64,000 nt of DNA, from the NCBI GenBank assembly GCA_944388175.1, contig CALXHR010000004.1, forward strand, positions 1-64,000, given 5' to 3'. Source of the stretch: an uncultured Gemmiger sp. (GTDB taxonomy: Bacteria > Bacillota > Clostridia > Oscillospirales > Ruminococcaceae). The position numbers and the translations under genes are program-made. Positions 253 to 27,897 of the stretch are shown here, in pieces. The notes beneath the pieces were generated by a model that worked only from the letters and a program-made list of their open reading frames with translations, was not told the origin of the DNA and made no database searches. Position 1 is the stretch's first letter. Each line of letters begins with the position of its first letter.

Positions 253-3200
253 TTAGAGGAAATTTGTGATTTGCTGGATGGCATACGGCTTTGCATACTT
301 TAAGCAAGAGTCGCTCACGAAAATGCATTCTGGCTCTTCCGGCTTTTTCCACATGGCTGGATAAACTCTGAGCTCTTTCGCGGAATTGCCCAGCTGAAGA
401 ACGATTTTATCGTCACGTACGGAAACCTGAATGCCTGTTTTCTCAAGTATCTCTTTCAAAGGTATAAGCATCTGCACTTGGTCTGCAATGGGAGCCATAG
501 TAGGACGTGTACCATCCTTTGCCCAGTGAAGAAGCTCCAACGCAGCATGCCGGTCAAGCAAGCCATGCAGATTCTGATTACGGTAATGCTTCAGGCAGTC
601 GCGGCAAGCAGATTTACATGTACAGTTAGAAAGCATTGTATCAACTTGATGAAGAACTTCCGGCATGATTGATGCAACTCCCACGGCATATCCAGCACCG
701 CTGGAGAGGTTGTCATAGATATACACATCAAGGAAAACATCTTGACCTTTCCGACGGACACGATATCCTGTCATCAATTCCGTAAATTCAATATCCATAA
801 TGCGGCTTATAACCAACCGAATTGCCTCGGCCAAAGATGTCCCGGCGCGAGCAAGCCATAGATTGTCTTTTCGCTCGGTTTCTACCTGTTGGGGGTCAAT
901 GTAAATCTCCAAGACAAGCATATCCGTGATAAAGTCGTATCCCAGATTTACTTGTTTGGTATTGGTATGCCGGCACCGATTACTGCGGATATACTTGGAT
1001 ATATACGGACGATTCACTTCGTTTAGCGTATCCACCCCATCACCAGGCATGGCTGCGCCACAATCGCAACAGACCGTGAATCCTTTTCCTTCGATACCCT
1101 TGTTTATCATAATAATTCGTTGATTGGTTCGTGAAGCCATACGGACATTCTTACAGCCTGCAATTTCGGCCATCGTTTCTGATTCAGGCAAAGTGGAATA
1201 AAGCGGCTGCTGAACGACGGTTCTTTCCTCTTCTAACAGCACTTCTGGAATTGCACGGCCATCCTTCGGAGCAAATCCCCAAGGACGCAACATGGGTTTC
1301 GTTTCCATAATGTTTTGGCTGCCACAGAAAGGGCAAGCTTTCATGTGGTCTTCCTTTAGCCCAAACCATCCACAATCCTGACATTCTACAACCTCTTTGC
1401 AATAGTTTTCGTCATCAACGAAAGCTTTTGCAGGGCTGAGTAGACATCCTTTTCTGCGTTCGCTGCCTGGATAGTAAAAACCGCCAATTTGATAGGTGGC
1501 TTTATCAACGACAATCGCACGGCCAGGTGCATATTCACCGATAGCAATATCTAGGCCACGTTCCACTTGGTAAAGTTGTTTGCCCTCTTGGTTCGAAATA
1601 TAGGTACTAACAACATTTTTGGGGAACGAGTATGTCGGTATGATTCCTTCCTCATAGAGCGCGTCTAACAGCGATTTGCTTTTCGTTGTCACGCCATCCG
1701 GAACCTGATAAAGTTCTGGGTGCGCCTCCTTTTTCAGTTTTAGTTTTCGAAGCTCGTCTATCAAGGTTTCCTTGAATTGACAGTTTCCATGGTACGACAC
1801 GGGAATCAAGAAGCGGTCTACCATTTGAAACGACCGCAGGAAACTCTGGAATACTTCCAGTTTCTCGTCCACAAATTCTGCTGCGCCCATAAGTTCGAGA
1901 CTGTTTGCATCTTGTTTCAAGAACTCTTGCAATGCAACCATACTCAGATGACGCTGTATAAGCTTTTCGCTGGAAATATCAATCCAAGGGCGACGCGGGT
2001 CACCTTGGAGCATCGGTTCCGGGTTTTGAAAATAATATGTGTCATGCGGACCATTATCGCAGTAGGTGACAATAGTAGATAGGCTGGCACCCCGCCGTCC
2101 GGCACGGCCGGCACGCTGTTGATAGTTCTCACGCATCGGCGGAATGTTTCTTAGTCCAACAGCAACCAAGGAACCTATATCAATACCAACTTCCATCGTT
2201 GTTGTACTGCTTAAAATGTCAACGGGCGATTCATCTTTTCGAACCATATCCTGGAATCGAAGTTCATATTGCTCGGTTCTTGACCACATATCATTACTTT
2301 GGTCTTTATACGAAAGCTGTGCCGTATGTTCTTCTGTATCAATCACATAGATTGGGTTGTCGCTTATGGCCGAGATGGCAGGAACGCGCCAGAAATCCAA
2401 GGCATGAAGTTCTTCTTCTGTCATAGGATGGTCAATATCAGCTCCACAGTTCGGGCAACCTCCCTTTAATGTGTAAGGGGTTACTGTTGAGCATTTTGGG
2501 CAACGATACCATTTGTGATTCAAGTCAAAGCAGGGTTTAACTTTCGTGAGGTCAATGTACCACTTGCTGAAATCTCCTTTTTCAAGAAAACGGCGTTGCA
2601 ATATTCTTTTCCAAATGCTCTGTGTTTCTCCTTTTTTCTCCCACCCCATTTTCTTGCAAATCGTTGCGGGCATAGTCCAATCTTCTGAAAGACCATATCC
2701 GCTTTCTCCATACCCTTTTCGAACATTACTGCGGATATCATTGGAAATCGTCTGACCCAATGCGACCTCATCGCAGCAGTCATCAATCCACGCATTGAAC
2801 ACTTCCAGAAATTCTTCTTCCGAAACCTCTTGCCCCTCTTCTGCAAGCTCGTCGACAGCGTCAAACATTGCCTCATCTGTAGGGGAAAGCCAGCACAAAG
2901 CGACAGAGGTAAGGGTATCATATGCACCGCAAAACATGCGGAGAAGCTGCTCTTTCATCTGGTCTGGCGCATTATCACCAATAGTCAGAGATGGGTGCCA
3001 GGGGCGCTCTGCACGTTGTCTGCGTTTGTAATCGCGAAGAATTTTTGCACAATCATTCACAACAAATTTGTTTCTGTCATCTCCGCTATACAGTTGCACT
3101 TGATGTAATGCGGCTTCCAGTACGAAGAATCCATAAATATCGTTCAGCGATTGTTCTTCAGTCACTTTTTGCATTCTGGCAATAGCGAGCACAGCCAGCT

Positions 3201-5493
3201 GGCGTGCTGCCGTCATGTCAGAAGCATTCGACATATCACGTGCAAGCCGTGCGGCACGCTGTCGGCTATCTGAAAACAGCAATACCTTCCGCCCTGCATT
3301 CGGCAAACGAGGATTGTCTTCTTTGCCCTTCACTGGTGGCTGAACATCAAATTGTGCCTTAATCAAATTGTAGAAAGACAGATTTCCCCGCGTAGCAAAG
3401 GAAGTCAGTTCAGAGCCAAGCATACGACGTTTGCAATGCGGGCATGTTGGAAATGTAATCGTGTCTGGATGGCCTTTTTCAGAATAGTCTGCATAATACA
3501 GCTTCAGCACACCATCTTTTTCAGCAAGTGAATCATCTCGGAAGTTGATGAATCCGCTACGACTATCCAGATAGCACGGACGGAGGGGATACTTTCCTCT
3601 GTTTTGAGGTACGAATCCTTTTTCGGGAATGTACAAATGGATTTCTTTCAGGGTACTTGTATCAATTACCTGACCAGAATATCTCCACAGATATGCACGG
3701 CCATAAGAATCCATTTCCGATTTCAGAACATACCCTTTTAGGAACAGCGCTCCGCACTTGCGGTCATTGTATAACTCATATACCGTACTGTGGCATATAG
3801 GGCACGTGTCTTCAGCATCCGAAAGGAAAATGTCTCCCAAAGTAATCTTCCCGTCTGTATGCGAATGAGGACACTGCGGGTTCGTACAGGCGTAAACTCC
3901 GTTGATTCCGCGAAACAGCATATGCATCCGGGTTGGGCAAAGAACCATCCCTTTCTTGTTCTTGGCGAGTGGTGCAATTGCCAGCAAAACACTGACGGCG
4001 TTCAACGCTTCCTGATTATCCTGAGCAGGAAAAATTGTTTTTGCCAAATCATGCAGCGACTCTGCATTTCCTCGACATTCCTTCAGGAGCAGTTGGAAAG
4101 GAACGTAATCTACCAAATGGTCATACAACCAGTAAGATACATCTTCTAAAGATGCAAAAGGAGTAGGAGCACCAGGAAGCCCCGACCAAAACCGATTCAG
4201 TGCCGCAACTTTTTGGTCACCATCAGCTTCAATTTCTTCAGGGGTTACTTGTTTGAATTTAATAAATGGAATGTCCGTTCCCTGTCCGGCTGCAATTGTT
4301 TCTCTTTCGCCAGTTAAATAGGTAAACGTATAATTATCTGCGCCGGTCAATGCCTGAGCAAATTCATGAACGGCCATTCTGTCTTCATCGGTCTTGTTTG
4401 GCATACTGGCCGTTGTCAGGATAAACTGCACTCGGTCTCGTCCGATTCCCAAGCGATGAAACAGCCGTCGAATCAAGAGTGCCACTTCGCCTCCGGAAGA
4501 ACCGCGATACATATGCGCTTCATCAATAACAAACAAAAGTTTGTTTTCCGGTGCTGAGTCCAACCACTTTTTCGTATCGTCCCATATTTTCTTTTCTCTC
4601 GGACGAAAAAGCATGTATTCCAACATGGAATAGTTGGTAATAAGAATATCCGGGCAGCATCCCTGCATTTCAAATCGTGTAATCAGCTCGGCATCCTCAC
4701 TGTTGGGGATATGTCTACTTTCCCGCAAGTCATCGATAAAAGAAGCCATATCTTCTTTGGCGGGAATGCGACCTTCTTTGAGAAGGGTCTGGTAGAATTT
4801 TTCTTGGTCTTCCGTATCCGGTTTCGTCATGCGAGATAAAGTTTTTGCCAACTCTTTATCCGTTCCGGAGAAGGTTGTATTCCCAGGATATGGAGTGCGC
4901 CCGGTGTACATACCAAACTGGGGACGCCTTGCGTTATTGCCCGCAGTCTCCCGGAAAATCTGTACAAATTTATGGTTCGGGTCTCCAATCAAACGGCGTA
5001 ATCGGCCGATTTGGTCCGAAACCAATGCATTCATAGGATACATGATAAGAACGCGCACGCCTCTCTGTGACCAAGAGGTGGGGGATTCTTTCGCTTCCCG
5101 AGTCAATTTTGCCAAAATCGGCCACATAAAGCATTCGGTTTTACCGGAACCCGTTCCAGTTGCGACAAACAAATCTTTGCCCTGTACTGCCGTTTCCAGA
5201 GCATCAATCTGGTGTTTGAATGGTGATGTGTATACGCCAAGATTGGCGTCCGCCAATTTCTCGAAAAAGGAGCTCATCCAGGCAGGAATATTGGCAGCCT
5301 GTAAGCCGTGTTCTACCGTAACATAGGCTGGAGAAGATTCGATATAGGGCTGTTGATAGAGAACCCCTTCCTCATCCAAACGAGAAGAAATAGCCGACAG
5401 CAAAAGAGGGGATTTTCCAAAGAACTGTGATTTGATATAATTCTCCAACTCACTTTTTAGATAACTATGAACTTCATATGCACCTTTTGCCAT
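253..5493 (-). CDS. Very large DEAH-box helicase with DUF1998 domain (DruE-like)
   Basis: This is a 1746-residue superfamily 2 helicase. Walker A is ATGTGSGKTE at about residues 111-120 and the DEAH box is at 324-327. Helicase motifs V/VI are in the half containing VGIDIG and QQRAGRAGRRG. Several CxxC zinc pairs are scattered through the middle. The C-terminus has the DUF1998 signature CxCx3Cx2C from about 1624, followed by an H..LDR stretch. Helicases of this size and layout are the E subunit of Druantia; DISARM splits comparable domains between DrmA and DrmB. It probably translocates on nucleic acid as the motor of the module. Its ATG overlaps the stop of the preceding gene (TGATG), so it is translationally coupled to it. 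It is the last gene of the operon. The helicase/DUF1998 call is secure; the DruE relation is inference. Confidence 0.88.
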   Translation of the reverse strand: MAKGAYEVHSYLKSELENYIKSQFFGKSPLLLSAISSRLDEEGVLYQQPYIESSPAYVTVEHGLQAANIPAWMSSFFEKLADANLGVYTSPFKHQIDALETAVQGKDLFVATGTGSGKTECFMWPILAKLTREAKESPTSWSQRGVRVLIMYPMNALVSDQIGRLRRLIGDPNHKFVQIFRETAGNNARRPQFGMYTGRTPYPGNTTFSGTDKELAKTLSRMTKPDTEDQEKFYQTLLKEGRIPAKEDMASFIDDLRESRHIPNSEDAELITRFEMQGCCPDILITNYSMLEYMLFRPREKKIWDDTKKWLDSAPENKLLFVIDEAHMYRGSSGGEVALLIRRLFHRLGIGRDRVQFILTTASMPNKTDEDRMAVHEFAQALTGADNYTFTYLTGERETIAAGQGTDIPFIKFKQVTPEEIEADGDQKVAALNRFWSGLPGAPTPFASLEDVSYWLYDHLVDYVPFQLLLKECRGNAESLHDLAKTIFPAQDNQEALNAVSVLLAIAPLAKNKKGMVLCPTRMHMLFRGINGVYACTNPQCPHSHTDGKITLGDIFLSDAEDTCPICHSTVYELYNDRKCGALFLKGYVLKSEMDSYGRAYLWRYSGQVIDTSTLKEIHLYIPEKGFVPQNRGKYPLRPCYLDSRSGFINFRDDSLAEKDGVLKLYYADYSEKGHPDTITFPTCPHCKRRMLGSELTSFATRGNLSFYNLIKAQFDVQPPVKGKEDNPRLPNAGRKVLLFSDSRQRAARLARDMSNASDMTAARQLAVLAIARMQKVTEEQSLNDIYGFFVLEAALHQVQLYSGDDRNKFVVNDCAKILRDYKRRQRAERPWHPSLTIGDNAPDQMKEQLLRMFCGAYDTLTSVALCWLSPTDEAMFDAVDELAEEGQEVSEEEFLEVFNAWIDDCCDEVALGQTISNDIRSNVRKGYGESGYGLSEDWTMPATICKKMGWEKKGETQSIWKRILQRRFLEKGDFSKWYIDLTKVKPCFDLNHKWYRCPKCSTVTPYTLKGGCPNCGADIDHPMTEEELHALDFWRVPAISAISDNPIYVIDTEEHTAQLSYKDQSNDMWSRTEQYELRFQDMVRKDESPVDILSSTTTMEVGIDIGSLVAVGLRNIPPMRENYQQRAGRAGRRGASLSTIVTYCDNGPHDTYYFQNPEPMLQGDPRRPWIDISSEKLIQRHLSMVALQEFLKQDANSLELMGAAEFVDEKLEVFQSFLRSFQMVDRFLIPVSYHGNCQFKETLIDELRKLKLKKEAHPELYQVPDGVTTKSKSLLDALYEEGIIPTYSFPKNVVSTYISNQEGKQLYQVERGLDIAIGEYAPGRAIVVDKATYQIGGFYYPGSERRKGCLLSPAKAFVDDENYCKEVVECQDCGWFGLKEDHMKACPFCGSQNIMETKPMLRPWGFAPKDGRAIPEVLLEEERTVVQQPLYSTLPESETMAEIAGCKNVRMASRTNQRIIMINKGIEGKGFTVCCDCGAAMPGDGVDTLNEVNRPYISKYIRSNRCRHTNTKQVNLGYDFITDMLVLEIYIDPQQVETERKDNLWLARAGTSLAEAIRLVISRIMDIEFTELMTGYRVRRKGQDVFLDVYIYDNLSSGAGYAVGVASIMPEVLHQVDTMLSNCTCKSACRDCLKHYRNQNLHGLLDRHAALELLHWAKDGTRPTMAPIADQVQMLIPLKEILEKTGIQVSVRDDKIVLQLGNSAKELRVYPAMWKKPEEPECIFVSDSCLKYAKPYAIQQITNFL

Positions 5494-6521
5494 CAGGCTT
5501 CCTCCTCAAAGAAATACCCAAGAGATTCCATGACGGATTTGAACGACCGATATACAGGTGTTGCCATCTGTCGTGTGACACGCTGTGAAAATGCATTTAA
5601 GGTTAAATTCGGCATTGGCCAGGAATATAACTTGAAAAAGTTTTCTTCCATAGGAGGCAGCAAATATGGAAAAGAAACAGTCATCAAGTTTATATCTCCC
5701 GAACAGCGTACTGGTTGCAACAAATGGTTTGACATCAGAATACCATTGGCCAGCGCCAACCATTCAGGAACACTTGTTTGGCCATTATTGGGATTTGTCT
5801 GCCATATCTGGAGCTGGCTCCATTGCCATTCATTGGAAGATTTTCTGTACAGGTAGTAATTGTAGCTGACTGCCTGCGGAACTCGCATTAGTCCAAACGC
5901 TATATCTTCATTTGGCTTTTGCGACCAGTATCCGACTTTTTTCTGGTTCTGCATAGTGAGAAATTCTGAATCTTCCGGGAAGTCCGCGCTTTTCCAATTG
6001 GCATCTGCTTCGCATTCTGTCACAAGAGCTATCAAAGGACGGTGAAGTTGAAACATCTCCTGCACAGAATGGTAATAGCGTTGTGTACTGACTGGATTTA
6101 TCGAATAGTCCCCTAAACCGCTCACAGGGTGCGCAGACAATGGGGTGCATCCCCGAAGAAAAATTGTCTTACCATCGGACGCAGAAGAGCTAACCGCTGG
6201 TGCGAGATGGTTCTTTTTGTGATAGAATGCGCCAGCATTCAAATAGATACTGTACAGCTCATCGCGGAGCAATGCAGAATCGCCAAGGTAATCGGCGGTC
6301 GCTCCGAGAATTTGTAAGTAATATGGTTGCCTCTCGGCTATTGATGCGGAAAAGTGCTGAACAGAAGGCAGGTCATCTTCCTCATCCCAGACAGATGCCA
6401 GCGCCAGCTTGCCCAATGCACTGTAAATCAATCTACGCCGCCAGGCATCAACATCTTCTTTCGTCCCACGTAAAATAGACAAATCTTTTGCCAGGCTGGA
6501 AAAAATATCTTCAAACGGCAC
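5493..6521 (-). CDS. Unrecognised defence-module protein (342 aa)
   Basis: This 342-residue soluble protein has no signal peptide, no membrane segment and no motif I recognise. It is rich in aromatic residues and serines. The gene starts 2 bp after the stop of the coiled-coil gene and its own stop overlaps the helicase ATG, so it is made in step with both. In Druantia type I, proteins of unknown function (DruB-D) precede the helicase in the same way, so it may be a distant counterpart of such a subunit. That is suggested only by position and size, not by similarity I can see. Confidence 0.75.
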   Translation of the reverse strand: MPFEDIFSSLAKDLSILRGTKEDVDAWRRRLIYSALGKLALASVWDEEDDLPSVQHFSASIAERQPYYLQILGATADYLGDSALLRDELYSIYLNAGAFYHKKNHLAPAVSSSASDGKTIFLRGCTPLSAHPVSGLGDYSINPVSTQRYYHSVQEMFQLHRPLIALVTECEADANWKSADFPEDSEFLTMQNQKKVGYWSQKPNEDIAFGLMRVPQAVSYNYYLYRKSSNEWQWSQLQIWQTNPNNGQTSVPEWLALANGILMSNHLLQPVRCSGDINLMTVSFPYLLPPMEENFFKLYSWPMPNLTLNAFSQRVTRQMATPVYRSFKSVMESLGYFFEEEA

Positions 6522-6523
6522 GA

Positions 6524-8638
6524 TTATTCTTCCTCATAGTCAAAAAAGTGGTAAATATGGGATTTGACTTCTGTGGGGACAGAGTTGGACTCTTGAATTC
6601 GTTTGCAAAACTGCTCTCCCTTACGGGTAACCGCAGCATAAGGAAGTAAGGTGTATTCAAAGGCCGCTGTGGCATTATTCATATCATCAGCTTCCGCCAT
6701 CACAGCCACATCCGAAAGGATGCCCTGTATCTTTTTCTGCATCATGGAACTGATTTTCAGAGAATCCAGCCAGTCCCTACGCAGTCCAGGTTTGGTAGAC
6801 GGCTCGAACGCTTTCCCATCAGGAGCCAAGATTGTCCCCGTAGCATCTGCTATTTCAGCCTGATGTTCTACAAAATCCGTTGTGAATACTGGGATAAGAT
6901 ATTGGAAAAGACTTTCCGGTTCAATCGACAAATCTTCCGTATAGGGGTGGCAGAAAATGATTTGTTTGCGACTTGTTGCCATATCCCGAAGCAAATTTTG
7001 AAGCCAATCCCCGCAGAAAGGATTTCGAACAAGAAGAATTCCTTCTCCTCGCATGGCTTCAGTGCTGGCCTTTTCGTTGTAATCTTCTGTGCAAACCAGG
7101 ACGTCTGCATACCGACCATAAATGGTGGCAGAGAGCGTTTGCGCAATTTCTTCTGAATTTAGGCCTGCCAGCAATAGCGATTGGTGTCTCAGGTGCGTTG
7201 CATAAAGAAATCTCGCCATATGTAGATGGTGTGAACGCTCTTTTGTAATTCCTGCGCACGAAGATAGGTTATCCGCAAGTTCAGCGATTACAATATTGTA
7301 ATCATCGACCAAATCTACAACTTCTTCATCCAACCTGTCACCATGAAGGATGGTAGCTGATTTAGGGCTATTGTTTGTTCCATTCGCGGAGATAGGCATA
7401 TACAAAGACATCTCTGCCAAAAACTCAGCTACATTGGCTTTTGTGCTTGCAAGTTTGTCCTGAACAAGACGGTAGCTATCCTGAGCAATACGTTCATTTT
7501 CCTGTATAGTCCCTTGAAGCTCTGCCAGATGTTTTTTTGCTTGTTCAATCTGATGCTTTGTTTCGTCAAGAGTGCGAGTACAGTTTTTCTGGTCCTGCCT
7601 TACTTGTTGAAGTTCTTTATTGGCTTGTTCTATTTTTTCTTTGGCTTCTTGCTTCCATTGCTCCTCTACTTGCTGCGTATATTTGGTACGCAACGTATCA
7701 TTTGCTTCAATAAGCTTTGAAAGAATGTCTGTATCTATTTCAGTCCCGTCCAAGTATTCATTTGCGTTTGCAATAAAGCCTTCAACATATTTTTGTGCCG
7801 TTTCAACTGAACAACCAATATCGTCGGCGATTTCTTGGTATAAATCTTTTCCGGTGACGTTTTGCAGGAACGCCTTGAATAACCTTAACTCGTTATTGGT
7901 ACGTGCCGTAAAATCTCGGAATGAAGACCAGCTCATTTTCTGGTTGGTAAGAATCCGGTTTTTGACAATCTCCAACGCATCCTTGGCCAGAATCGTTCCA
8001 TCGGGAACTCCGGGATTCATCTTTCTCAGGAACGTGTAGCTTGGAAGCTCCGGATATTTGCGGAGCTCTTGGATTGTGACGATATCTTTCTTGCCAAGAT
8101 TGTAATACGGCAGTTTTGAAACAGATAACTTTAGCCGATATGTTCCATTTTGGCACTCCATATCCATAGATTGGCAAAGTAGGCCCAGCCCCATACCCGT
8201 AGCCGATGGAACCAATGTATATATAACATCATAGCTTGTACTTCCGTCCGGAACTCCTTCATGAAGCATGTCTATTGCCTGCTTTGCCGTACTAGCATGA
8301 AGAGGAATTACCAGTATGGGAGTTTGGCTAAGTAAGGTTACGCTTGTCTTGATTTTGTCCGGTCTATCCGGGTCCGGTGCATCAGACCACGCAAATACGG
8401 CAAGCTCGCCTTTTTCAAAATACTGCCTTACCTTATGTGGAAGTGCATATCGCTTTGAAAAAGCATATTTTTGCTCGTTTGCGTTTTCTTGCTCATCATC
8501 ATCAAACTGGCATTCGCATAGTTTTTCGTCGGCTATGTCAGCAACACGTGTCCATTGCCTCCACCATTCTGTACTATCATTTTTTATGCACAAGGAAACC
8601 GCTTCGAAATAGGGCGTGTCCTGATTAAACTCATCCAT
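6524..8638 (-). CDS. Unrecognised coiled-coil defence-module protein (704 aa)
   Basis: I start it at the ATG at 8638 (protein begins MDEFNQ), which has GAGGA eight bases upstream. A longer in-frame opening at 8731 would overlap the previous gene by 77 bases. The N-terminal half looks globular. A long heptad-rich coiled coil, full of Gln, Glu and Lys, spans roughly residues 320-400. A C-terminal alpha/beta-looking domain follows. I see no Walker A motif or nuclease signature. The coiled coil argues for a structural, dimerising or SMC-like bridging role in a complex with the helicase. The gene lies 16 bp after the zinc-cluster gene and 2 bp before the 342-aa gene. Function unknown. Confidence 0.78.
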   Translation of the reverse strand: MDEFNQDTPYFEAVSLCIKNDSTEWWRQWTRVADIADEKLCECQFDDDEQENANEQKYAFSKRYALPHKVRQYFEKGELAVFAWSDAPDPDRPDKIKTSVTLLSQTPILVIPLHASTAKQAIDMLHEGVPDGSTSYDVIYTLVPSATGMGLGLLCQSMDMECQNGTYRLKLSVSKLPYYNLGKKDIVTIQELRKYPELPSYTFLRKMNPGVPDGTILAKDALEIVKNRILTNQKMSWSSFRDFTARTNNELRLFKAFLQNVTGKDLYQEIADDIGCSVETAQKYVEGFIANANEYLDGTEIDTDILSKLIEANDTLRTKYTQQVEEQWKQEAKEKIEQANKELQQVRQDQKNCTRTLDETKHQIEQAKKHLAELQGTIQENERIAQDSYRLVQDKLASTKANVAEFLAEMSLYMPISANGTNNSPKSATILHGDRLDEEVVDLVDDYNIVIAELADNLSSCAGITKERSHHLHMARFLYATHLRHQSLLLAGLNSEEIAQTLSATIYGRYADVLVCTEDYNEKASTEAMRGEGILLVRNPFCGDWLQNLLRDMATSRKQIIFCHPYTEDLSIEPESLFQYLIPVFTTDFVEHQAEIADATGTILAPDGKAFEPSTKPGLRRDWLDSLKISSMMQKKIQGILSDVAVMAEADDMNNATAAFEYTLLPYAAVTRKGEQFCKRIQESNSVPTEVKSHIYHFFDYEEE

Positions 8639-8654
8639 TTCAACATCCTCGCCT

Positions 8655-10211
8655 TCACTTATGATTCGCAAAATAGTCAATAAGATAACGGTATGCCTCT
8701 GTCGGCATTTTGCCATTGCGAACACAAACATACAGCTCTTGTTTGAGTTCCGAGTTCATGGGAATATGATTTATCACATTTCCTATGGTGTGTTTGACCG
8801 GAGTGTACCTCATTGTCGGTTGCCGAAGTAATTGCAAAAATTTGGCGACAAACGGAGTATCTTGCCCTTGATATGGCCGCCTAAAGGAAATGATTCTGAC
8901 TATGTCATTGCCTTGAAAAAGCTTGATGGTTTCGCCGAAAGACACCTCTACGATTTTTAGCTCTTCGGATTTGATGATTTCTATATCACACACTTTACTT
9001 CCACGCGCAATGCTAATCTTGCCATCAAATGGGGCTAAAATCCGGAGAAAGCCTTTTGCAGGTAATTTGGTATAGTCGGATTCAGTCAATGGGGTCCCAT
9101 TGCCATCGGAAATTATTACTACAGGTTCTGTATTATCCTTAGCAATAATACCTTTCCATAGCATAGTATGGTTGCTCTGACTCCGCTGTCCATCATGATA
9201 GTGAACCGCAGCCATTTGCTGAAAGCCGTTTGATGCAACACAGAAATAGCCATTTCGCTGTTGGGGTAACTGTTGACCAGTGGGGAAAAGCAACAATTGG
9301 AGAGTCAAGTTTCCGTTATGTGCTACATATATGGTACTGCTATTGTGGAATTCCGTTCCCTGCACATTAACAGTCGGAGGCCACAAAAGAGTCAATGACA
9401 CCTTCTTTTTTACAAGGTGCATATGTAGCAGTAAAAAATAGCGAACAGTGTCCGAAGAAAAAGTTGTTGCCCTGATTTTGTAGACACGCCAGATTTTTCC
9501 GCTTATTGAGCTTCTCGCCACTTCAGAGCAATAAAGGCTGCCACAATATGGAGGCATGGAATCAGTCAATAGGTAATAGTCGTGCTCCTCGACGACTTCG
9601 TCTCCAGGATATAGCATTTTCCCGCCGATACTATCAAACAAGGCTCCATCAGGGTTGACTCCAGGAAGGTTTTCAGGCCAGTAAGCGGCTCGGAAACCTT
9701 TTGTTCGAATGGTATACTGGTTGTTTATATCTTGGCCTAAATTCAACCAGGTAAGACCCTTATCAGCCATTCGTTCGGCCAGAAAAAATTGATGTGGCTC
9801 TGGCTCTTTTCCGACAATTATCACTTGAACATCCGCATCAGGTGTATCAATTTTAGGAATACCGATAGCGAGCGTAAAACTTTGCCCAAGAGAGCCAAAA
9901 ACGATTTTAAGAGGTAAAAGATAACGGCTTGCTTGCAATAGCGGATACCCGCTTGAACGAAGCACTCGTTCTTTACAATTCTTGTTTTCTTCTCCTCTAC
10001 TGTGCATAAAGTAGCGTTTGCCTCTACTCGGGTTGGCAAACGGCACATATTGCCCACAGAGTTCACACATAAAAACTCGGTCACTCGCGGATACTGTTTG
10101 CCGCGGAAAAAGGTCGGATGCTTCTTCCACAGTAATATGCCGCCATCCTAGTTCCGCATCCCGTATACTTACATGTGTCAAGGAAGCTTCATGTTCTCGC
10201 ACTATATCCAC
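8655..10211 (-). CDS. Unrecognised defence-module protein with N-terminal CoiA-like Cys/His cluster (518 aa)
   Basis: The protein has a putative zinc site near its N-terminus: C49, C52, H70 and C79, arranged CxxC, then RYFMHS, then NKNC. This resembles the zinc-binding head of CoiA-like and other nuclease-associated proteins, where a short HFxH or FMHS-type element precedes a last cysteine. The remaining 430 residues look beta-rich and contain no motif I recognise. The start is a GTG (GTGGATATAG); an internal start cannot be excluded. It sits between the small acidic protein and the coiled-coil protein in the same transcript. A role in DNA or RNA recognition by the helicase complex is plausible but inferred. 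Confidence 0.72.
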   Translation of the reverse strand: MDIVREHEASLTHVSIRDAELGWRHITVEEASDLFPRQTVSASDRVFMCELCGQYVPFANPSRGKRYFMHSRGEENKNCKERVLRSSGYPLLQASRYLLPLKIVFGSLGQSFTLAIGIPKIDTPDADVQVIIVGKEPEPHQFFLAERMADKGLTWLNLGQDINNQYTIRTKGFRAAYWPENLPGVNPDGALFDSIGGKMLYPGDEVVEEHDYYLLTDSMPPYCGSLYCSEVARSSISGKIWRVYKIRATTFSSDTVRYFLLLHMHLVKKKVSLTLLWPPTVNVQGTEFHNSSTIYVAHNGNLTLQLLLFPTGQQLPQQRNGYFCVASNGFQQMAAVHYHDGQRSQSNHTMLWKGIIAKDNTEPVVIISDGNGTPLTESDYTKLPAKGFLRILAPFDGKISIARGSKVCDIEIIKSEELKIVEVSFGETIKLFQGNDIVRIISFRRPYQGQDTPFVAKFLQLLRQPTMRYTPVKHTIGNVINHIPMNSELKQELYVCVRNGKMPTEAYRYLIDYFANHK

Positions 10212-10272
10212 CTTTTTTCCCGCTTTTTATCTTTTACCAGCACAAGGAAGGGAGCAATGGACATCAAATGAC

Positions 10273-10794
10273 TTATAACTCATACTCGTAAAAATGAAGT
10301 CCTTCAACATCTGTTATATCTTCGCCAGGATAGAATACATATTGGCGCCCGTCGGACTGGTAGTGTGGCAGTTTCTCATCTGGAAATTTGTACGAGTAGA
10401 TGGCATGCAGAGTATACCCGTAAAAGCTTTCAACGAATTCTTGAAGCGCCTCCAGGACATCCTCTTGCGAAATGTAACTTGCGATGGCAATGGGTTCGGC
10501 CAGCATAAGGACATTGCGGTTCGTTGGCGAAGTGTATTCCCGTTTCAAAATGGAGCGGGTCATCTCGTCGGTCAATGGGTCGCTTTGTACGCGCCGGATG
10601 ACTTCCGGGCAAAATTCAGATAAGACGTCCGCGAAATAGATTGTGCCGTGAATAAAGCCGACTTCATTTTCCGTTTCTGCGTCGTACATGGTCAAGGAAA
10701 TCTGTTCTTCAAAACGATTTCCTCTGGACAGCTCTACTTGACGTTCCATAGCTTTGTCGCCGGTCGTGCGAGAAATACACAATTCGTTCTTCAT
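10273..10794 (-). CDS. Unrecognised small acidic protein (173 aa)
   Basis: I start it at the ATG at 10794 (MKNELCISR) because GGAGGG lies 9 bases upstream; an earlier TTG in frame would absorb that ribosome binding site. The protein is acidic, has no membrane segment or signal peptide, and matches no family I can name. The gap to the RecB-like nuclease gene is 32 bp and to the next gene 61 bp, so it belongs to the operon. Small acidic partners of this kind often act as adaptors or inhibitors of an adjacent nuclease, but nothing in the sequence proves that here. Confidence 0.7.
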   Translation of the reverse strand: MKNELCISRTTGDKAMERQVELSRGNRFEEQISLTMYDAETENEVGFIHGTIYFADVLSEFCPEVIRRVQSDPLTDEMTRSILKREYTSPTNRNVLMLAEPIAIASYISQEDVLEALQEFVESFYGYTLHAIYSYKFPDEKLPHYQSDGRQYVFYPGEDITDVEGLHFYEYEL

Positions 10795-10826
10795 GGTAAA
10801 TAGCCCTCCATTTGGCAATCCGTGTG

Positions 10827-11588
10827 TCAGTAACCAATCACATCTTTTTCAACCTGCTGAATCACAGCGGCAGGTATCATGCCGGTGTTCAGCAACCAGA
10901 TTTGGTTCAGTCGTGGGTTTGCGATACCAATGTTTTGAATGGTCTGAAAACATTCGTTCCAAGAATGTTTGCCCATGATGTAATACATCAGGACCTGTAA
11001 GGTATCTTTTGGTTTGGGTGGGCTTTTTGACGTCTTGATGTCCCATAAAGTATCTCTGGTCAAAAAGTCACCGTCACCGCAACTGACGATATCGGTATAA
11101 CCTCCTTCCATCGTAAATGCGTCGGCTGTTACAGGTCCGTATTCTGCGAAAAAACGCACCATACGGGTCACCATCAGCCGGATGTTGAAAAGTGTACTAT
11201 GGTTGGGCTCCGGCTCGGATATAGTCGGAGGAACGGCTTGAGATGAACGAGCATACGAGTCATAGCTGGCCAACTTGCAGGCGGCACACAGCGAAACGTC
11301 GTCCAGCCCTTTAATTTGGCCAACGAGTTCTTCGCCGCGCTGCGGTCGCCCGGCCAGAGCAGTGCCAAGCAACGAAACGAGAAAGGCATCTTTTGCCGTT
11401 ATTGGTCCGGAAACAAAACGGCTCATGTAATCGACCGTTTGGCCGACAATGCTGGCATGAACGTTTTCGTCTTCCTTTAGGGCAAAGTTGTCCTGCATGG
11501 CGCGGGGAGTAAACGCCCTCAAGGGCAGATACCCGCCGCGAGGCTGTGCCACCGTTTTAGCTCGTTTAGAAACCGAATATGTGTACAT
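10827..11588 (-). CDS. RecB-type PD-(D/E)XK nuclease (253 aa)
   Basis: The C-terminal half carries the order of motifs typical of RecB/Cas4-family nucleases: GYTDIV (Asp166), a loop, LWDIKTSK (Asp183-x-Lys185), then Q198 and Tyr202/203 in TLQVLMYYIMG. These correspond to GxxD, the D/E-x-K core and the QxxxY motif that positions DNA. The N-terminal half is helical with a CAAC at 101-104. It should be a metal-dependent DNA nuclease. It starts 6 bp after hsdR, yet it is not a known R-M subunit. It is more likely the nuclease of the helicase module that follows. The fold assignment is from motif reading, not a search. Confidence 0.72.
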   Translation of the reverse strand: MYTYSVSKRAKTVAQPRGGYLPLRAFTPRAMQDNFALKEDENVHASIVGQTVDYMSRFVSGPITAKDAFLVSLLGTALAGRPQRGEELVGQIKGLDDVSLCAACKLASYDSYARSSQAVPPTISEPEPNHSTLFNIRLMVTRMVRFFAEYGPVTADAFTMEGGYTDIVSCGDGDFLTRDTLWDIKTSKSPPKPKDTLQVLMYYIMGKHSWNECFQTIQNIGIANPRLNQIWLLNTGMIPAAVIQQVEKDVIGY

Positions 11589-11594: not shown

Positions 11595-14500
11595 TTACTC
11601 TTTACGCAAATCGTTGTACAAAACTTCTGCCATCGCGGTCATGATGGCTCTGTACTTTGCAGCATCAGTAAACAAGGACTGATAGGCTTGGTCATTTTCC
11701 ATATAAGAGGTCTGGGCGGTCTCCCCAAAGATTTTGGGGAAAACATTTTTTTCGAAGATTTGCCGTCCATCCTGGCGTGCAGATTTCTTCAGTTTTTGGT
11801 CCTGACTCATTTTCCGGCGCAGAGTATCCATCATCACGCGGTCACCTTCAGTGAATTCGCCCTCGTAATATTCATTGACTTTCTCAATGATTTCTTCCAA
11901 CGGGCTCTTCCGTTCCTGACCACCGCCGGCACCTTTCTTTGAACCCGGCTTCAATTCGCTTGAATGCTCTTCCAGCTCAATGGAACCTTCATACGTTTTC
12001 TCCAACCGATAATACTCCAAGCGTACTCGGTCACCCAATTTCCAAATCTGTTTGGGGTCATCCGGGATGAGATGCGCCAAATAGGAGCAAAGAACATATT
12101 CTTTGTGCAGCTCTTTATCGAAGATGCGCACAATCTGGCTGATATAGTTATACCATTTCACGAATTTTCGAATGGTGCGACGGAACTCATACCGCTGGTC
12201 GGCATTCAAAGTATTATAAACATCGGCCGCCGGTTTAAGGGCATTGGTTACTTGCGCCTGAACACTATCCGTTTTCTTTGCATTAGGGTCAAAGTAAATC
12301 TTTGCCACCAACTCCACATCAGACGAACCATAGACCTTGTAGTTGCGCAGCTCATCTCGGATTTTGTAAATCTGGTCAACATTGATTTCCTCTGCCAAAA
12401 TAGTTTCCTGATAATATGGCTGGAAGGCCGCCTGGATTTCCTCGGCAGTGTTTACGAAATCCAAAATATAGGTATCGGTTTTCCCCGGGCAAGTTCGATT
12501 CAAGCGGCTAAGAGTCTGCACAGCTTTTACATCACGCAATTTTTTATCTACAATCATAGTGTGGAGCAGCGGTTCGTCAAAGCCAGTTTGGAATTTTTCA
12601 GCAACTACCAGAATATTCCCTTCATCATGGAATACGTTCTGCGTCTGGTTGATACTCACATGGTTGCCGTTGCGGTCCACGTTCATGCTATTTTCCGTGT
12701 ACTCAATTCCGGTGGGGTCATCCGGGTCGGTCACAGAACCAGAGAATGCAATCATCACTTCTAAGTCATCGTAATGATTGGATTCAATATACCGGCGAAT
12801 TTCCTGAACGTAACGTACTGCTGCCAAACGGGAGGCGGTAACGACCATCATTTTCCCACGTCCACCAATTTTGTGCCGTGTAATGTCTCGATAAGTCTCT
12901 ACGATGATAGCGGCCTTCTGCTGCAAATTGTAGGGGTGCAGTTCTGAGTACCTGCGAATCAATTTAGTAGCCTGAGCAGAAGGTACATCGGGATTGTCGG
13001 GCGTGTTTTTGGCAATGCGATAGCAGGTCTTGTAGGTCGTGTAATTGGCCAGAACATCCAGAATGAAGCCTTCTTCAATGGCCTGCCGCATGGAATATAC
13101 ATGGAATGGGCGGAAGCGTCCATCCGGCATCGGAGTGCCGAAAATCTCCAAGGTTTTATCTTTGGGGGTAGCAGTGAAGGCAAAGAAGCTCAGGTTTTTG
13201 TGCTGTCCTTGAGCAATCATCTCTTCGACCAGCCTGTCATTCTCTTTTTCCAGTTCGTCTTCGGCCTTGCCTTCCAGTTCGGCATATTCCTTTAATGCGT
13301 CAGAAGTATCAGCCAACGCCGTTTTCAACTTCATGGCACTGGTTCCGGTCTGGGAAGAGTGAGCCTCATCCACGATAACAGCGAAAGATTTCCCCTCAGT
13401 GCTTCCGACTTCTTTGTAAATCACCGGGAACTTTTGCAGAGTGGTGATAATAATACGGCGTCCATCCCGGATTGCCTGCAACAAATCCGTAGAGTTTTTC
13501 TTCTCGTCAATGTTGACGACACTTCCCAACGTGTGGTCAAAACCACTGACCGTGTTTTGCAGCTGAGAATCCAATACGGTACGGTCGGTGACGATAAAAA
13601 CCGAGGTGAAAATCGGTTCGCTATCTTCATTGTGAAGGCTGGCCAACCGATAGGCAGTCCAGGCAATACTGTTGGACTTGCCAGAACCGGCGCTGTGCTG
13701 AATCAGATAATTGTGGCCAGGGCCGTTTTCTTTAACCTCAGCAATCAGCTTTCTTACCACGTCCAGCTGATGATAACGGGGAAAAATGACTTTCCGGGTA
13801 AGAATCTGCCGGGTGCTTCCATCTTTTTGCCGTACCTGCTCGCGGGCAACCTGATAGCTGATAAATTTCTGGATAATATCCAGCAGTTTATCTTTTTGCA
13901 GAACTTCCTTCCACAGATAGGAAGTCACGTAATCGCCATCCGTGGTAGGCGGGTTGCCAGCGCCACCATCTTGACCGGGTCCGTTGCTGCCTTGGTTAAA
14001 TGGCAGGAAAAACGTTTTCTCTCCATCCAGCTTGGTGGTAATCGCGGCATTGTACAGGTCTACGGCAAAGAAAGCAAGGATGCGACGATTCAGTTTGAAA
14101 CAGTCTTCTCGTGGGTCACGGTCGTTCATCCATTGCATCTTGGCATCGTCGATGGTCTGCCCCGTCAATTGATTCTTCAGTTCAAGCGCGATGACGGGAA
14201 TGCCGTTGATGGCCAGCATCATATCCACACTGTTTTTGTTGTTGTGAGAATAGTGCCATTGCCGAATACACTGGCAGATGTTCTGCTGATAGTTCTTGTT
14301 GGCGGTAGCGTTCAGCGCAGATTCAGGCTTGAAATAGCAAACACGGAACTCCATGCCGCGATAACGGAAACCATGCCGCAGCACAGAAATCAAGCCGTCA
14401 GCGTCAACGGCATCCTGAAATGCTTTATAGAATTTTTGCTGAGGCTCACTTTTGCACTGACGCAGAAAGCGCTGCCATGTAATGGGCTGCGTAGTCTGCA

Positions 14501-14648
14501 CAAACTGCAAGAGCGTTTCCAAATCCAAGGCCACGCCTTTGCTGGCCTCGCTGCGATATCCCGCATCGGTCGCTTTCTGCCAACCGCCAGCTGGCGAAAT
14601 CAGGAAGGACTCGATATCGGTTTCAAATTGTTTTTCGTTGTCTGGCAT
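11595..14648 (-). CDS. hsdR: Type I restriction enzyme, R (motor/nuclease) subunit
   Basis: HsdR cuts DNA at a distance after ATP-driven translocation and acts in an R2M2S complex. The PD-(D/E)XK core is visible as [19 protein letters not shown] (D...ExK) in the first 200 residues. It is followed by Walker [11 protein letters not shown], the DEAH box [12 protein letters not shown] and the SF2 motif FAFTATP. At 1017 residues it is full length. I start it at the ATG at 14648 (MPDNEKQ), which has GAGGA eight bases upstream; a longer opening to 14708 would overlap the PIN-like gene. The distance from hsdS is unusual: two non-R-M genes are inserted between them. All key residues look intact. Confidence 0.95.
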
Positions 14649-14682: not shown

Positions 14683-16728
14683 TTACTCCGCAATGTGCAA
14701 GTGTTCAAATATACGACTTGTTATCTCTTGTTGGTAAATTTTCTCTTTTGAATTAGCGTGTTTGTCAAAATACTTTATATACATTTGCCTGTCGACAGCC
14801 GCAATCTTTTTTTGGATAAAATCTATATTTCGATTTATGATTTTATCAAGTAACTTATTGATGAAAGGGCTTAAAAAAAGTATAACGGAAATTACATACC
14901 CAAGCCAAGAGGATGCTTTCATAGAAGATATATGATTGACCATCAATGTTAAAATAACAACCACAATAGCAGATGCAGCCCACCAAAAATTTGAAAGTAA
15001 AGCGAGCAGCCGGCAGCCAATAGGAATGTGCTCTAAATAATACCTTTTATACGCATCTATAAGGTCAGTTTCTTGCCTAGTCTTTTCTACAGAGATGTTT
15101 TGTAAGTTCTCATTCAAGGCGGCTATTTCATGGTCCTTGTTCATATTTTCAATTTTCATGAACTCATCAAGGGATTGGGCCAAGACTTCTTCGGTAAAGT
15201 TTTCATATTCACCATCCGAATTGCGGGCAACAATTTCGAATAGTTTGGAACTATAATGTTCAGAAAGATTATCGATGGAAATTCGGCCATATCCATTGTA
15301 GTCCTTAAGGTTTTCTTTGAACTTTTGATAGAAAACGCTATTTTCTTGCTGAGCAGCATATACAATTCTAGAAAGAGATAATCCAGGAACGTCGGCAGAA
15401 ATAGTAGAGGCTTTTGGTAGCCATAAGCGATATGTTAATGCGGAATCTGCAATTATAGGTAAGTGGTTTATTTGAAATTGAACACCTTTTTCTTGGTATT
15501 CATTTGCGAAGAAGCTGCGACAACTGCTAATCAACGCATAGTTTGTTGTTACAAATATTGGAAGGTTATTGCTTCCGCCGTAGGCAGTGTTATAATTGCC
15601 ACGACGCATAATATTTATTTGATTTATTGAGTCGACATCGTTTTCAACTACTTTTCTCTTCCACTTTGGGTGCGCTGTGCAGATATGATTTACAAATGCC
15701 AGGAGGTCGATATTGTAACGCTTATTTTGTGGTTTTGTAACATCCACATTATCTTCAATAGTGATTTTCTCTTCTTCTACAATTCTATGCTCTAAGAATT
15801 CTAAATCTAAGGAAAATTGAGATTTTTTGTATGAATTTAGTCGTCTAAAACATTCCAGCTCCCAATTTTCTCTTACGGTGTTACCAGGGGTAAGAGCAGC
15901 AATTTCGGTTGAAATTGCTGAGCAAATTTCCTGATAAGTATGTTGAAAAATGCATATTTGTCCGCCATATTCTGTTCGCAAAAGATTAACGAGCTCTCTC
16001 GTTCCAGTGACCATTTCAGGCCATGAATAACCTAAATACCTCAGCATTAGTTTTGTATCAAAGAAAAACTTGGTCCTATTAAATTTTTCGTGTTTGTTTG
16101 TGTTGTAGTCGGGGAACTGACACAATCCAATGTAAATCATCAAACCTCGTGTCATATCTATGACATAATTAAAATGGGGGCCTTTCTCCTTTTCGTTTTC
16201 GACTTTTTTCAAATACTGAGAAATATACCAATTGCTACTAATCTTTTTGTCGTCAGGGTCTAATTCCCAGTTGTCAGTTCCTCCGTCTGTAAATAAATAA
16301 TACGCATAGTTTGACTTAATAAAAAAATCCAGGAGATTATTGCGTGTTTCATCAGGAGTCCAATTTACTTTTAGCCCTTTAAGGTATTTACTTAAATCTT
16401 GCAGCAGTTCGTCTTCTTGATGTTTACGATAAGCTACTTGCTCATTGAATTGTTGAACATCAAAGTCTGATTGTATGTATTGAAAGCCCCCACCATCCCG
16501 GAGCTTTTTAATATTCCCCTTGTTAGTTAATACAATTGCGCATGATTTTAATACGTGGATGGGGATTTTTAATCCAAATTCGCTTGAAAAACTGTTTTGC
16601 AATTCATCAATTCTCATACACCCATTGGCAGACTTGGTTTGCAATAAATATATGAAAAGGTTGCAAAACACATGTAATGGATTATCTGTTGTGTTAATGT
16701 AGGCAAGAGTAATTATTGTGTTTTTCAT
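14683..16728 (-). CDS. PIN-like domain protein with two C-terminal membrane helices
   Basis: This 681-residue protein has a helical N-terminal region and a PIN-like nuclease signature. [13 protein letters not shown] (Asp224) is the first acidic strand, QHTYQEIC (Glu267) the second acid, VNHI and ENDVDSINQ further acids, and FVTTNYALI (about 395) the typical T-T/D-N end strand. A helical linker and two hydrophobic segments at about 580-600 and 609-626 follow, then a basic tail. PIN domains are metal-dependent RNases. Membrane-tethered versions occur as abortive-infection effectors. The position between hsdS and hsdR is the one used by the PrrC anticodon nuclease in EcoprrI, although no PrrC motif is present. 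Nuclease activity is inferred. Confidence 0.7.
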
Positions 16729-16786: not shown

Positions 16787-17425
16787 TTATGGTTTTTCTA
16801 AAAAATCATACTCGCGTTTGCGGTTGACCATCGCTTGAATCAATTTGAAAAAAAGCTTTACATAATGAATATATGCATGTGTGCATTCTAGCAGTGGAGC
16901 ATTTCGTTTTTCAGGAAGAGGTAAGCCGATTAGAAAATCTATCTTACCATCCTCACACTTGTCTATCATTTGGTAAAAAGCTTTTGAAGATAGATGTACA
17001 AATCCACTGGCTTGTTCATATACTTGTGCAAAGCCAGAGTCAATTTCGTCTATTTTTCTCTTTAAGTAACCATCTGAAAATCTGTTACCTTTTTTGTCCC
17101 TAAGTTTATCTATCCGTTCTCCATCCAAGAGATGCTGAACAAGAAGTTCTTTATCCCCTGCCACTAAGGCAGCGTAAGTTCGCATACAATTATCCATTTG
17201 CATACGGAGCAAAACTCCTGCGCAAGTCAAGTTGCGTGATTGGAGCATAGGAATAAAGCCATCAATCAAACGAATACATCTATCCAATGAAGCGCAAAAA
17301 TACAGGTCTTCAGAAAGCAAGGTCTCCCCAATGACACCTTTTGTGAGAGAAACAGCTTCCTTTCGAAGCTCTTGCAATTCCTTGACTGAAGAGACAACGG
17401 CCACATTGTATTCGTCATTTGTCAT
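16787..17425 (-). CDS. Helical protein of unknown function between hsdS and the PIN-like gene
   Basis: The 212-residue protein is predicted almost all helical by its composition, with a conserved-looking GFVHLSS segment near residue 142. Such His-containing helices occur in DUF5677- and HEPN-like proteins, but I do not see a full Rx4-6H motif. Its ATG overlaps the stop of hsdS (TAATG), so it is translated with HsdS. The next gene begins 58 bp downstream. It could be the sensor or antitoxin partner of the PIN-like protein, or an S-subunit accessory. Both roles are guesses from position. Confidence 0.7.
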   Translation of the reverse strand: MTNDEYNVAVVSSVKELQELRKEAVSLTKGVIGETLLSEDLYFCASLDRCIRLIDGFIPMLQSRNLTCAGVLLRMQMDNCMRTYAALVAGDKELLVQHLLDGERIDKLRDKKGNRFSDGYLKRKIDEIDSGFAQVYEQASGFVHLSSKAFYQMIDKCEDGKIDFLIGLPLPEKRNAPLLECTHAYIHYVKLFFKLIQAMVNRKREYDFLEKP

Positions 17426-18762
17426 TAGAAAATCTTCCTTTTTCCTGTCACAACCTCGTAAATGAGGGATTTTTTATAGGCATCAAGGTCTATGACAAGG
17501 GCTTCTTTTTCTTGAATAATCTCATCCAGAATTTTGCATTTGGTATCTAGCATAGCAACGATGTCCCTTTGCTCTGATATCGGTGGAACCGGCACCGTAA
17601 AGCGAAGAATTGTAGACGAATTTGTGCTTGCCAAATTGGTGGTCTTCTTAGCCGTCAAATCGAAATATTCACGACCTACAGGAGACGTTGTAAGGTAATC
17701 AAGATACTTCGTGAGCATATATTTCTCATTTACGTGGACGGCAAAAACATGATTCTGATGTAAACATCCAGGAATTTCTCCATTCCAGATAGTGCCGCGC
17801 CCCAATTTGTCTCGGTCGCCGCCCTCTGTCATAAGCAATTCCCCTGGCACAAGTTCGTATTTTTTTGCTTCTTCGGGGGTAACCATAATGGTTGCTACAT
17901 CATCAAGTGCGAGCCTATCAGCTTTAACATTAGCAACTCGTAAATAGGGGCGTGCAACTAAAGTCTTTTCGGAGTTATACCGTTTGCCTAGTGTAATACC
18001 AGAACGAATACTGACAAAATTACCTATCTTCGTAACGGTCCAATGATAAGGAATTTTTCCAATCCAATCCACACCGCTATCCTTCATCTCGACGTTAGAG
18101 TCAAGTCCCTTACTAACAGCTTCAAAAATAATGCTGGACTTCCACTCCTTGTATTTTGCGATGCTAGATTGGACTTCAAATATTACATCATCAACTTTTT
18201 TGCATACATCATCCAAATAATTGGCTATAGATAATTGTTCATTATATGGGGGAATCGCAACACACCTTTTCAAAATGTTCGAAGATGACACCCGTAGCCG
18301 AATTTCAAGAATGCCATTAGCATATTTTCTCAATTCCTTTTGAAAATTTGTCAAATGAAACAAGTAATTGAAAAAGCGGATATCATTTTCCTCTTTAGCT
18401 GCAAAGACATAATAGACCGGACTTACACATCCGTAATAGTTGCATAGTCCTACAGAACCAATCAGAATGTTCATGCTATTTACGACGATGCAATTCGGAT
18501 ATGCAAGTTTATAATCTGTAAGATTTTCCTTTGCTTTATTTCCTTGGTTGCCTTTTTTCTCATAAGGAATGACACCCAGCTTATTAGTGAGGGACAATAT
18601 ATTAGATGTTTTAATCGGGGAGTTTGGTTGATTGATTTCAAACAAATGCCATTGTAATTTTTCTGTGTTCCAGTGTTCTGGAATCTTCCCAATCCATTCA
18701 ACGCCACTGTCCCGCATATTCTTGTAGTGACGTGCGCCCTTCTGTGCATAATCATTCGCCAT
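17425..18762 (-). CDS. hsdS: Type I restriction-modification specificity subunit
   Basis: HsdS sets the DNA target of both methylation and cleavage. The protein is 445 residues, the usual size. It has two target-recognition domains, each introduced by a near repeat (DSGVEWIGKIPEHW near the N-terminus and DSGVDWIGKIPYHW in the middle), and each ends in a helical spacer with SIANYLDD or QRDIVAMLD type motifs. It overlaps the end of hsdM by 11 bp. No second or partial hsdS copy or inverted repeats are seen in the window, so there is no sign of phase-variable shuffling. Confidence 0.95.
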   Translation of the reverse strand: MANDYAQKGARHYKNMRDSGVEWIGKIPEHWNTEKLQWHLFEINQPNSPIKTSNILSLTNKLGVIPYEKKGNQGNKAKENLTDYKLAYPNCIVVNSMNILIGSVGLCNYYGCVSPVYYVFAAKEENDIRFFNYLFHLTNFQKELRKYANGILEIRLRVSSSNILKRCVAIPPYNEQLSIANYLDDVCKKVDDVIFEVQSSIAKYKEWKSSIIFEAVSKGLDSNVEMKDSGVDWIGKIPYHWTVTKIGNFVSIRSGITLGKRYNSEKTLVARPYLRVANVKADRLALDDVATIMVTPEEAKKYELVPGELLMTEGGDRDKLGRGTIWNGEIPGCLHQNHVFAVHVNEKYMLTKYLDYLTTSPVGREYFDLTAKKTTNLASTNSSTILRFTVPVPPISEQRDIVAMLDTKCKILDEIIQEKEALVIDLDAYKKSLIYEVVTGKRKIF

Positions 18763-21864: not shown

Positions 21865-21915
21865 CTTGCTCCCTCCCATGCCCGCAATATATGGGTCAGC
21901 TGATTTCCTATAAGC

Positions 21916-27239: not shown

Positions 27240-27897
27240 GGCCGAAGTTCTTATAAAACTTCTCGACGAATACAGATTGGACAATCCAAATGTTAAAGTA
27301 ACAATTCCTCAATTCGGAGTATATATTCGAAATAAGGGATATAATGTACAAGATTATACAATACGACGCAGCACAGAATTTAGGGTATACCTCAAAAAAA
27401 TAAACAATAGCACAGCAGAAGATATCCGTTCTGACCTTGTGACCTATAAAACACTGGATGTTGATGATTTCATTAAAAAGAATCACACCGAAGGAAATCT
27501 TAGAAACGCGCTTGTTAACAGAGATAGATATTATGCAAGAGTTGCGGCTAATGCCGTTGAAGCTATCAATGCTCGAAAGGCGATGGAGCGCAAAGTGTCT
27601 GAGTTGGAAGGCCACGTTGCTGAGCTTGAGAGTCAATTGGCAAATGTGCAGGCAAAAGCAGATAATGCAGAAATACGTAAAAAGGATGCTGCGATATCAA
27701 CGCTGAAAAGAATCCTTGACGGGTATATCTATCCAGAAGCTGCAAATGCCATTTTGGAAAAAGAAGGAATTCTCGAAGTGGTAAACTCCGCCATTCCAGA
27801 AGAGCTCATGAAAGAAAAGGTCGTAGATGCAGACACAGATATAAAATCATTTGATTTTGATTCTGTGAACGAATTATTGGGTGGGTTCAATGACTGA
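27217..27897 (+). CDS. Coiled-coil TnpC-like accessory protein
   Basis: I start it at the ATG at 27217 (MAKKKTVEAE) with GGAGG eight bases upstream, which gives 226 residues and a 23-bp overlap with recombinase 3. An N-terminal region that looks like a small helical DNA-binding domain is followed by a heptad-rich coiled coil at about residues 120-160 and an acidic tail. Position after the recombinases and the coiled coil resemble TnpC of Tn554, which influences orientation and frequency of transposition. The similarity is architectural; I cannot claim sequence homology. Confidence 0.65.
   Translation: MAKKKTVEAEVLIKLLDEYRLDNPNVKVTIPQFGVYIRNKGYNVQDYTIRRSTEFRVYLKKINNSTAEDIRSDLVTYKTLDVDDFIKKNHTEGNLRNALVNRDRYYARVAANAVEAINARKAMERKVSELEGHVAELESQLANVQAKADNAEIRKKDAAISTLKRILDGYIYPEAANAILEKEGILEVVNSAIPEELMKEKVVDADTDIKSFDFDSVNELLGGFND

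Follow-up and report, generated by a model that had tools for sequence, protein, structure and literature searches.

A probable DruA-less branch of Druantia type I beside a PDC-S61 nuclease gene and a type I restriction-modification system in an uncultured Gemmiger

DISARM, Dpd, ARMADA and Druantia defence systems have in common a helicase of the YprA-like family, as described in PMC12458937. In E. coli Druantia type I, the genes follow the order druB, druC, druD and druE, with druA directly upstream of druB. For Druantia types I and II, an inactivated Vsr domain has been described in DruE, and DruC has been described as a CnuB homologue without an intact P-loop (Bell et al. 2025, PMC12458937, a view taken from type IV CoCoNuT systems). 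The literature on the Druantia mechanism that we found concerns type III, where DruE is reported to engage 3′-tailed DNA, with DruH as the likely sensor (PMC13192584), and where the DruH–DruE system of M. smegmatis is reported to be activated by a phage tail protein (PMC13316683). We saw no mention of a type I system lacking DruA in PMC12458937, and no report of one was found in the literature searched, which lay mostly outside the subscription journals.

The window analysed here is a stretch of 64,000 nucleotides from an uncultured Gemmiger sp.; its start is the end of the contig, on the druE side. A run of six adjacent minus-strand ORFs was confirmed within positions 253–11588, followed in the list below by the genes of the neighbouring type I restriction-modification (R-M) system.

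253–5493, minus strand: druE, DEAH/DUF1998 (MZB) helicase, 1746 aa (PADLOC DruE1)
5493–6521, minus strand: druD, 342 aa (PADLOC DruD1 and hhalign)
6524–8638, minus strand: druC, coiled-coil protein with a P-loop-like turn (PADLOC DruC1 and hhalign)
8655–10211, minus strand: druB, Cys/His protein, 518 aa (PADLOC DruB1 and hhalign, alignment, model)
10273–10794, minus strand: acidic orphan, 173 aa, pI 4.5 (copy adjoining the nuclease gene in G. formicilis An723)
10827–11588, minus strand: PD-(D/E)XK nuclease, 253 aa, PDC-S61 (PADLOC, E 6.2e-95)
11595–14648, minus strand: hsdR of the neighbouring type I R-M system (PADLOC and Pfam matches)
17425–18762, minus strand: hsdS (Pfam Methylase_S)
18752–20563, minus strand: hsdM (Pfam N6_Mtase, HsdM_N)

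The genes are closely packed: 6 bp separate hsdR from the nuclease gene, 32 bp the nuclease gene from the acidic gene and 61 bp the acidic gene from druB, followed by gaps of 16 bp (druB–druC) and 2 bp (druC–druD) and an overlap of 1 base between druD and druE. The limits given for druC correspond to the likely ATG start, the longest ORF reaching 8731 (735 aa), and an alternative GTG start of druB is found at 10202. Upstream of the nuclease gene, and on the same strand, lie hsdM, hsdS, two genes without Pfam match and then hsdR. The two genes between hsdS and hsdR (14683–16728, minus strand, 681 aa; 16787–17425, minus strand, 212 aa) have no Pfam match at E <= 0.01.

The window helicase matches the PADLOC DruE1 profile with 1766 bits over profile positions 4–1772 of 1776, compared to 647 bits for the type II and 608 bits for the type IV DruE profile, and is 32% identical to E. 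coli DruE. Direct PADLOC matches of the three genes before it are weak (DruD1, E 1.9e-5; DruC1, E 3.8e-6; DruB1, E 0.017). Alignments of 25–26 chosen family members were therefore compared by hhalign with DruB, DruC and DruD of E. coli and P. putida, giving probabilities of 96.9% across 263 columns for DruB, 95.7% across 239 columns for DruC and 89.5% across 130 columns for DruD. The DruD1 profile was matched by 24 of 25 family members, DruC1 by 7 of 26 at best and DruB1 by 3 of 26. The gene order B-C-D-E is that of E. coli. Homology of the window's DruB, DruC and DruD, weak when single sequences are compared, is thus suggested by partial alignments taken together with gene order, and a system unrelated to Druantia was ruled out on this basis.

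A first-pass annotation of this DNA had described six adjacent minus-strand genes of these sizes and spacing, placed behind a type I R-M system, with a Druantia-like DUF1998 helicase; the ORF coordinates and junctions, the same-strand hsdM-hsdS-hsdR genes upstream and the DruE1 match bear out all of this. It had also counted four orphan proteins, of which three turn out to be DruB, DruC and DruD homologues in canonical order. Its proposal that the six genes form one new system does not hold, the DruB–DruD profile matches being the very outcome it had set against it; of its wording "new or strongly variant", what stands is a variant of Druantia type I without DruA.

The locus resembles Druantia type I in its type I-profile DruE and in the DruB, DruC and DruD homologues with the same order and spacing. 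Unlike type I, the window holds no DruA, its DruB–DruD are highly diverged and its DruE falls on a branch of its own. A DruE-like helicase is also common to types II and IV, whose DruF, DruM, DruG and DruL have no match at E <= 1 among the matches listed for the six proteins. The helicase core weakly matches DrmA of DISARM and DpdJ of Dpd; however, the partner proteins of DISARM, Dpd and ARMADA do not appear among the six genes in the matches listed, and identity with DISARM or Dpd was ruled out because the matches are confined to the helicase core.

DruB carries a CxxC...FxH...C zinc-type motif followed by a beta-rich region, and its predicted model (pLDDT 81) contains many strands. A fold search of the PDB returned 16 matches for DruB, to immunoglobulin/fibronectin-like and phage-tail chains; all TM-scores were about 0.2 or less, and a function drawn from these matches was set aside. 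The predicted DruD model (pLDDT 87) has no PDB match at E <= 0.001. The DruC profile matches mainly coiled coils among PDB sequences, and its P-loop-like turn lacks GK[ST] in all 26 aligned rows, in line with the inactivated CnuB homologues described in PMC12458937. Likewise, the last ~110 residues of DruE contain no invariant D, E, K or H in 13 sequences aligned and inspected by eye, which agrees with the inactivated Vsr domain of the same article. Among 97 locus pairs with DruE 70–98% identical (drawn from 63 loci and not independent of each other), DruC shows the lowest identity in 87, DruB in 5, DruD in 4 and DruE in 1.

The absence of DruA, noted at first pass, is confirmed by wider searches. 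PF14236 (DruA) was found in none of the 50 genomes carrying related cassettes and in none of three others (G000, G085 and G194), comprising the window's own genome, which is 69% complete, and two more; the same search was positive for 4 of 4 DruA-holding plasmid records used as a control. E. coli DruA had no tblastn match across 89 locus records (L002–L090, some being overlapping pieces of one genome). Sixteen viral contigs with a DruE relative yielded a DruA match in two, L143 and L142, the DruE of which are only 29% identical to that of the window. Within a Pseudomonadota sample, four loci (L130–L133) hold DruA-like genes with no DruE match in the stretch fetched, which is 9.7 kb or less on some sides, and gave no further canonical systems; DruA-like genes may occur apart from Druantia.

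When genome contigs were scanned with an alignment of three DruE sequences, at least 547 relatives were obtained; the best 80 were kept, so that DruA-bearing members lying further out on the branch may have escaped. All four genes are present in 66 of these 80 loci, in the order BCDE in every case (66/66); the remaining 14 have at least one gene uncalled, several of them at contig ends. For loci with a single copy of each gene, the window and re-fetched pieces included, the gap is 100 bp or less between B and C in 58 of 61, between C and D in 61 of 61 and between D and E in 60 of 61. Where at least 1 kb before druB was available, a same-strand ORF of at least 100 aa ends within the 150 bp preceding druB in 18 of 59 loci. 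The cassette therefore usually has no close upstream partner, and the lack of a nuclease gene close upstream in most cassettes speaks against a constant need for one there.

A quick tree of 85 DruE sequences is divided by a branch with SH-aLRT support of 100: 80 rows, the window among them, fall to one side, and the five whose records also hold DruA fall to the other; with its long branches and no outgroup, the tree is compatible both with loss of DruA and with DruA never having been present. Hosts in the tree include Bacillota, Mycoplasmatota, Pseudomonadota, Planctomycetota, Bacteroidota, Thermodesulfobacteriota and a methanogen, although many are metagenome bins and single cases may be misbinned. 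The reading frames of the cassette stay open in many phyla, and the DruA-less version of Druantia is common in gut bacteria. Anaerobiospirillum succiniciproducens (L039, L090) carries a full BCDE followed by a second B-C-D and the start of E, with a further DruE on another contig.

The nuclease and the acidic protein show a different distribution. The nuclease matches PDC-S61 over its full length (profile positions 2–250 of 253). The residues first listed for it were D166, D183-x-K185 and Q198; D183-x-K185 and Q198 are indeed conserved among aligned homologues, but D166 varies, and the conserved acid is D174 in a G-D-G-D stretch, kept in 16 of 16. A tblastn search for either protein found nothing in the 89 locus records and nothing in the 16 viral DruE loci, and the co-occurrence of six genes that the first-pass annotation expected is limited to the window and Gemmiger formicilis An723. 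Of the 50 cassette genomes, one has the acidic protein and three have a member of the nuclease family, An723 being the genome with both; in the other two the nuclease gene lies among unrelated genes. A 3984-bp contig of An723 holds the end of hsdR, the nuclease gene, the acidic gene and most of druB; C-D-E are on another contig, and we infer that the two contigs adjoin. In An723 the nuclease is 91%, the acidic protein 92% and HsdR (344 residues) 88% identical to its counterpart in the window, compared to 65% for DruB (469 residues), 69% for DruC and 72% for DruD; DruE is 86% identical across the 1658 residues present. Between the acidic gene and druB, the DNA identity of the two genomes steps down from 85% to 69%.

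Of 398 genomes of the phylum, 6 matched the nuclease family, two of them strongly (the window's genome included); 31 plasmid records and one phage record matched as well. The phage record and 11 of these 31 plasmids were inspected: type I R-M genes adjoined the homologue in two plasmids, with the nuclease gene after hsdR in Halobacillus and before hsdM in Microbacterium; one plasmid has a DNA methylase gene nearby on the opposite strand, and Druantia lies beside the homologue in none of these records. Viral contigs gave eight nuclease homologues with an alignment query and none with a single-protein query, and none of these eight loci matched HsdR, HsdM, DruE, DruB or the acidic protein of the window. 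For the acidic protein, no relative turned up in plasmids at E <= 1 or, with an insensitive single-protein query, in viral contigs; three matches with E 0.002–0.009 among 295 genomes of the order, its own aside, were judged to be noise. The window member thus differs from other PDC-S61 nucleases in its position between hsdR and druBCDE and in having an acidic partner, which, An723 excepted, was seen beside no other homologue. The nuclease and acidic genes look like a rare, lineage-restricted addition outside the recurring core. Adjacency to hsdR is kept in two strains, and some selection for the link is possible.

Another kind of nuclease gene precedes druB in a sub-branch whose DruE are about 41% identical to that of the window. 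A C5 methylase gene lies upstream of druB in 12 of these related loci, recalling Druantia type II with its cytosine methylase DruM, and a restriction endonuclease gene lies directly before druB, at −3 to 51 bp, also in 12 loci; the two occur together in 10.

Endonuclease gene before druB, genome loci: L055, L057, L061, L063, L064, L066, L068, L072, L073, L076, L077, L078
Endonuclease gene before druB, viral contigs: L141, L146

The endonucleases fall into two clusters without significant similarity to each other, seven with an Eco47II-type and five with an EcoO109I-type representative (Pfam E 5.3e-90 and 4.3e-67, respectively, for one representative each). Mapped on the DruE tree, the two types require at least two changes. 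The methylase and endonuclease of L073 are 79–83% identical to those of L055 and of the viral contig L141, compared to just 37% for DruB (370–386 residues aligned) and 52% for DruE; L066 and L055, with DruE 74% identical, differ in endonuclease type. R-M identity that exceeds DruB and DruE identity, together with the type switches, indicates that R-M pairs moved between cassettes into one and the same position, and the pairs appear, from these comparisons, to have been exchanged between DruBCDE cassettes. Exceptions are L067, with a 268-aa ORF on the opposite strand, and L075, with a methylase and no endonuclease. The window's own branch has no such R-M pair. DruBCDE may use interchangeable partner nucleases.

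We consider it probable that the DruB-C-D-E genes at positions 253–10211 belong to a branch of Druantia type I that lacks DruA and acts through partner nucleases, the nuclease and acidic genes being a lineage-restricted addition. How these two genes relate to their neighbours can be read in several ways. It is quite possible that they form a stand-alone nuclease/inhibitor pair, brought by chance into a defence island: PADLOC lists PDC-S61 on its own, for most of the homologues examined the neighbouring genes include neither R-M nor Druantia, and PDC-S61 is entered for one S. thermophilus strain in a table of PMC11514479. However, the acidic partner is found in two genomes only, so that homologues elsewhere do without it, and both toxicity and inhibition are suppositions. 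That the nuclease, alone or together with the acidic protein, serves as an accessory of the type I R-M system is more doubtful. Its position directly after hsdR in the window, the Halobacillus and Microbacterium arrangements and an identity to An723 close to that of HsdR, not to that of DruB–DruD, all point this way; yet R-M adjacency concerns just 2 of the 11 plasmids inspected, and the high identity of DruE means that the rates do not split the units cleanly.

The remaining readings tie the nuclease, or a missing partner, to the cassette itself. A broader scheme, taken as a whole, is unlikely: DruBCDE would serve as a helicase chassis that has no nuclease of its own but offers, immediately before druB, a slot for exchangeable nucleases, and whichever nuclease occupies the slot would be the effector. 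This slot would classically hold DruA; here it would usually be empty, or filled by an Eco47II/EcoO109I R-M pair or by the PDC-S61 and acidic genes of Gemmiger. Less likely again is one dedicated six-gene system, in which the PDC-S61 effector replaces DruA and is restrained by the acidic protein. Neither added gene recurs in the 89 locus records, no nuclease homologue examined elsewhere adjoins Druantia, and the step in DNA identity to An723 falls between the acidic gene and druB; against this stand the tight spacing, the hsdR-nuclease-acidic-druB neighbours that recur in An723 and the R-M nucleases occupying the same position in another sub-branch. Finally, the upstream position of druA in E. 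coli could mean that DruBCDE is incomplete and needs DruA or another partner in trans, but the 53 genomes searched without finding DruA and the frames kept open in many phyla make this very improbable.

For the preferred DruA-less type I branch, the following scheme may be proposed. Recognition of infection, or of an unusual state of the phage DNA, would fall to DruC, which changes fastest of the subunits, acting with DruB and DruD. The DruE helicase would then load on phage DNA containing single strands and unwind or block it, if the mechanism of type III may be carried over by analogy to this branch. Judged by its sequence, the DruB–DruE cassette seems to contain no active nuclease, in which case DNA destruction would rest on partner nucleases; candidates are host nucleases, R-M enzymes and, in the window, perhaps HsdR and the PDC-S61 nuclease. 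Should DruBCDE prove protective in the absence of DruA, DruA would not count among the core components of Druantia I; a branch spread over several phyla, in gut and other bacteria, would then be overlooked or misassigned by detection rules that require DruA. The exchanged R-M pairs offer a direct way to ask whether a Druantia helicase complex acts on DNA ends made by restriction.

Several further genes lie upstream of hsdM. The gene at 20560–21879 (minus strand), which seems to head the R-M gene run, shares 4 bases with the start of hsdM and encodes 439 aa with an ISL3-type transposase domain. Five plus-strand genes follow at 22445–30049, encoding proteins of 425, 620, 553, 244 and 722 aa. The 425-aa and 553-aa proteins, which flank the 620-aa protein, have sub-threshold integrase matches, and the three genes are possibly a recombinase trio that moved the island. 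This trio has no tblastn match in 84 related locus records, and no relation to the integrase trio of the P. putida Druantia plasmid could be detected. The 722-aa protein contains a DUF4379 zinc finger. Near position 30000, G+C rises from ~0.37–0.48 before to 0.58–0.69 after, which gives the first 30 kb the look of a foreign DNA island.
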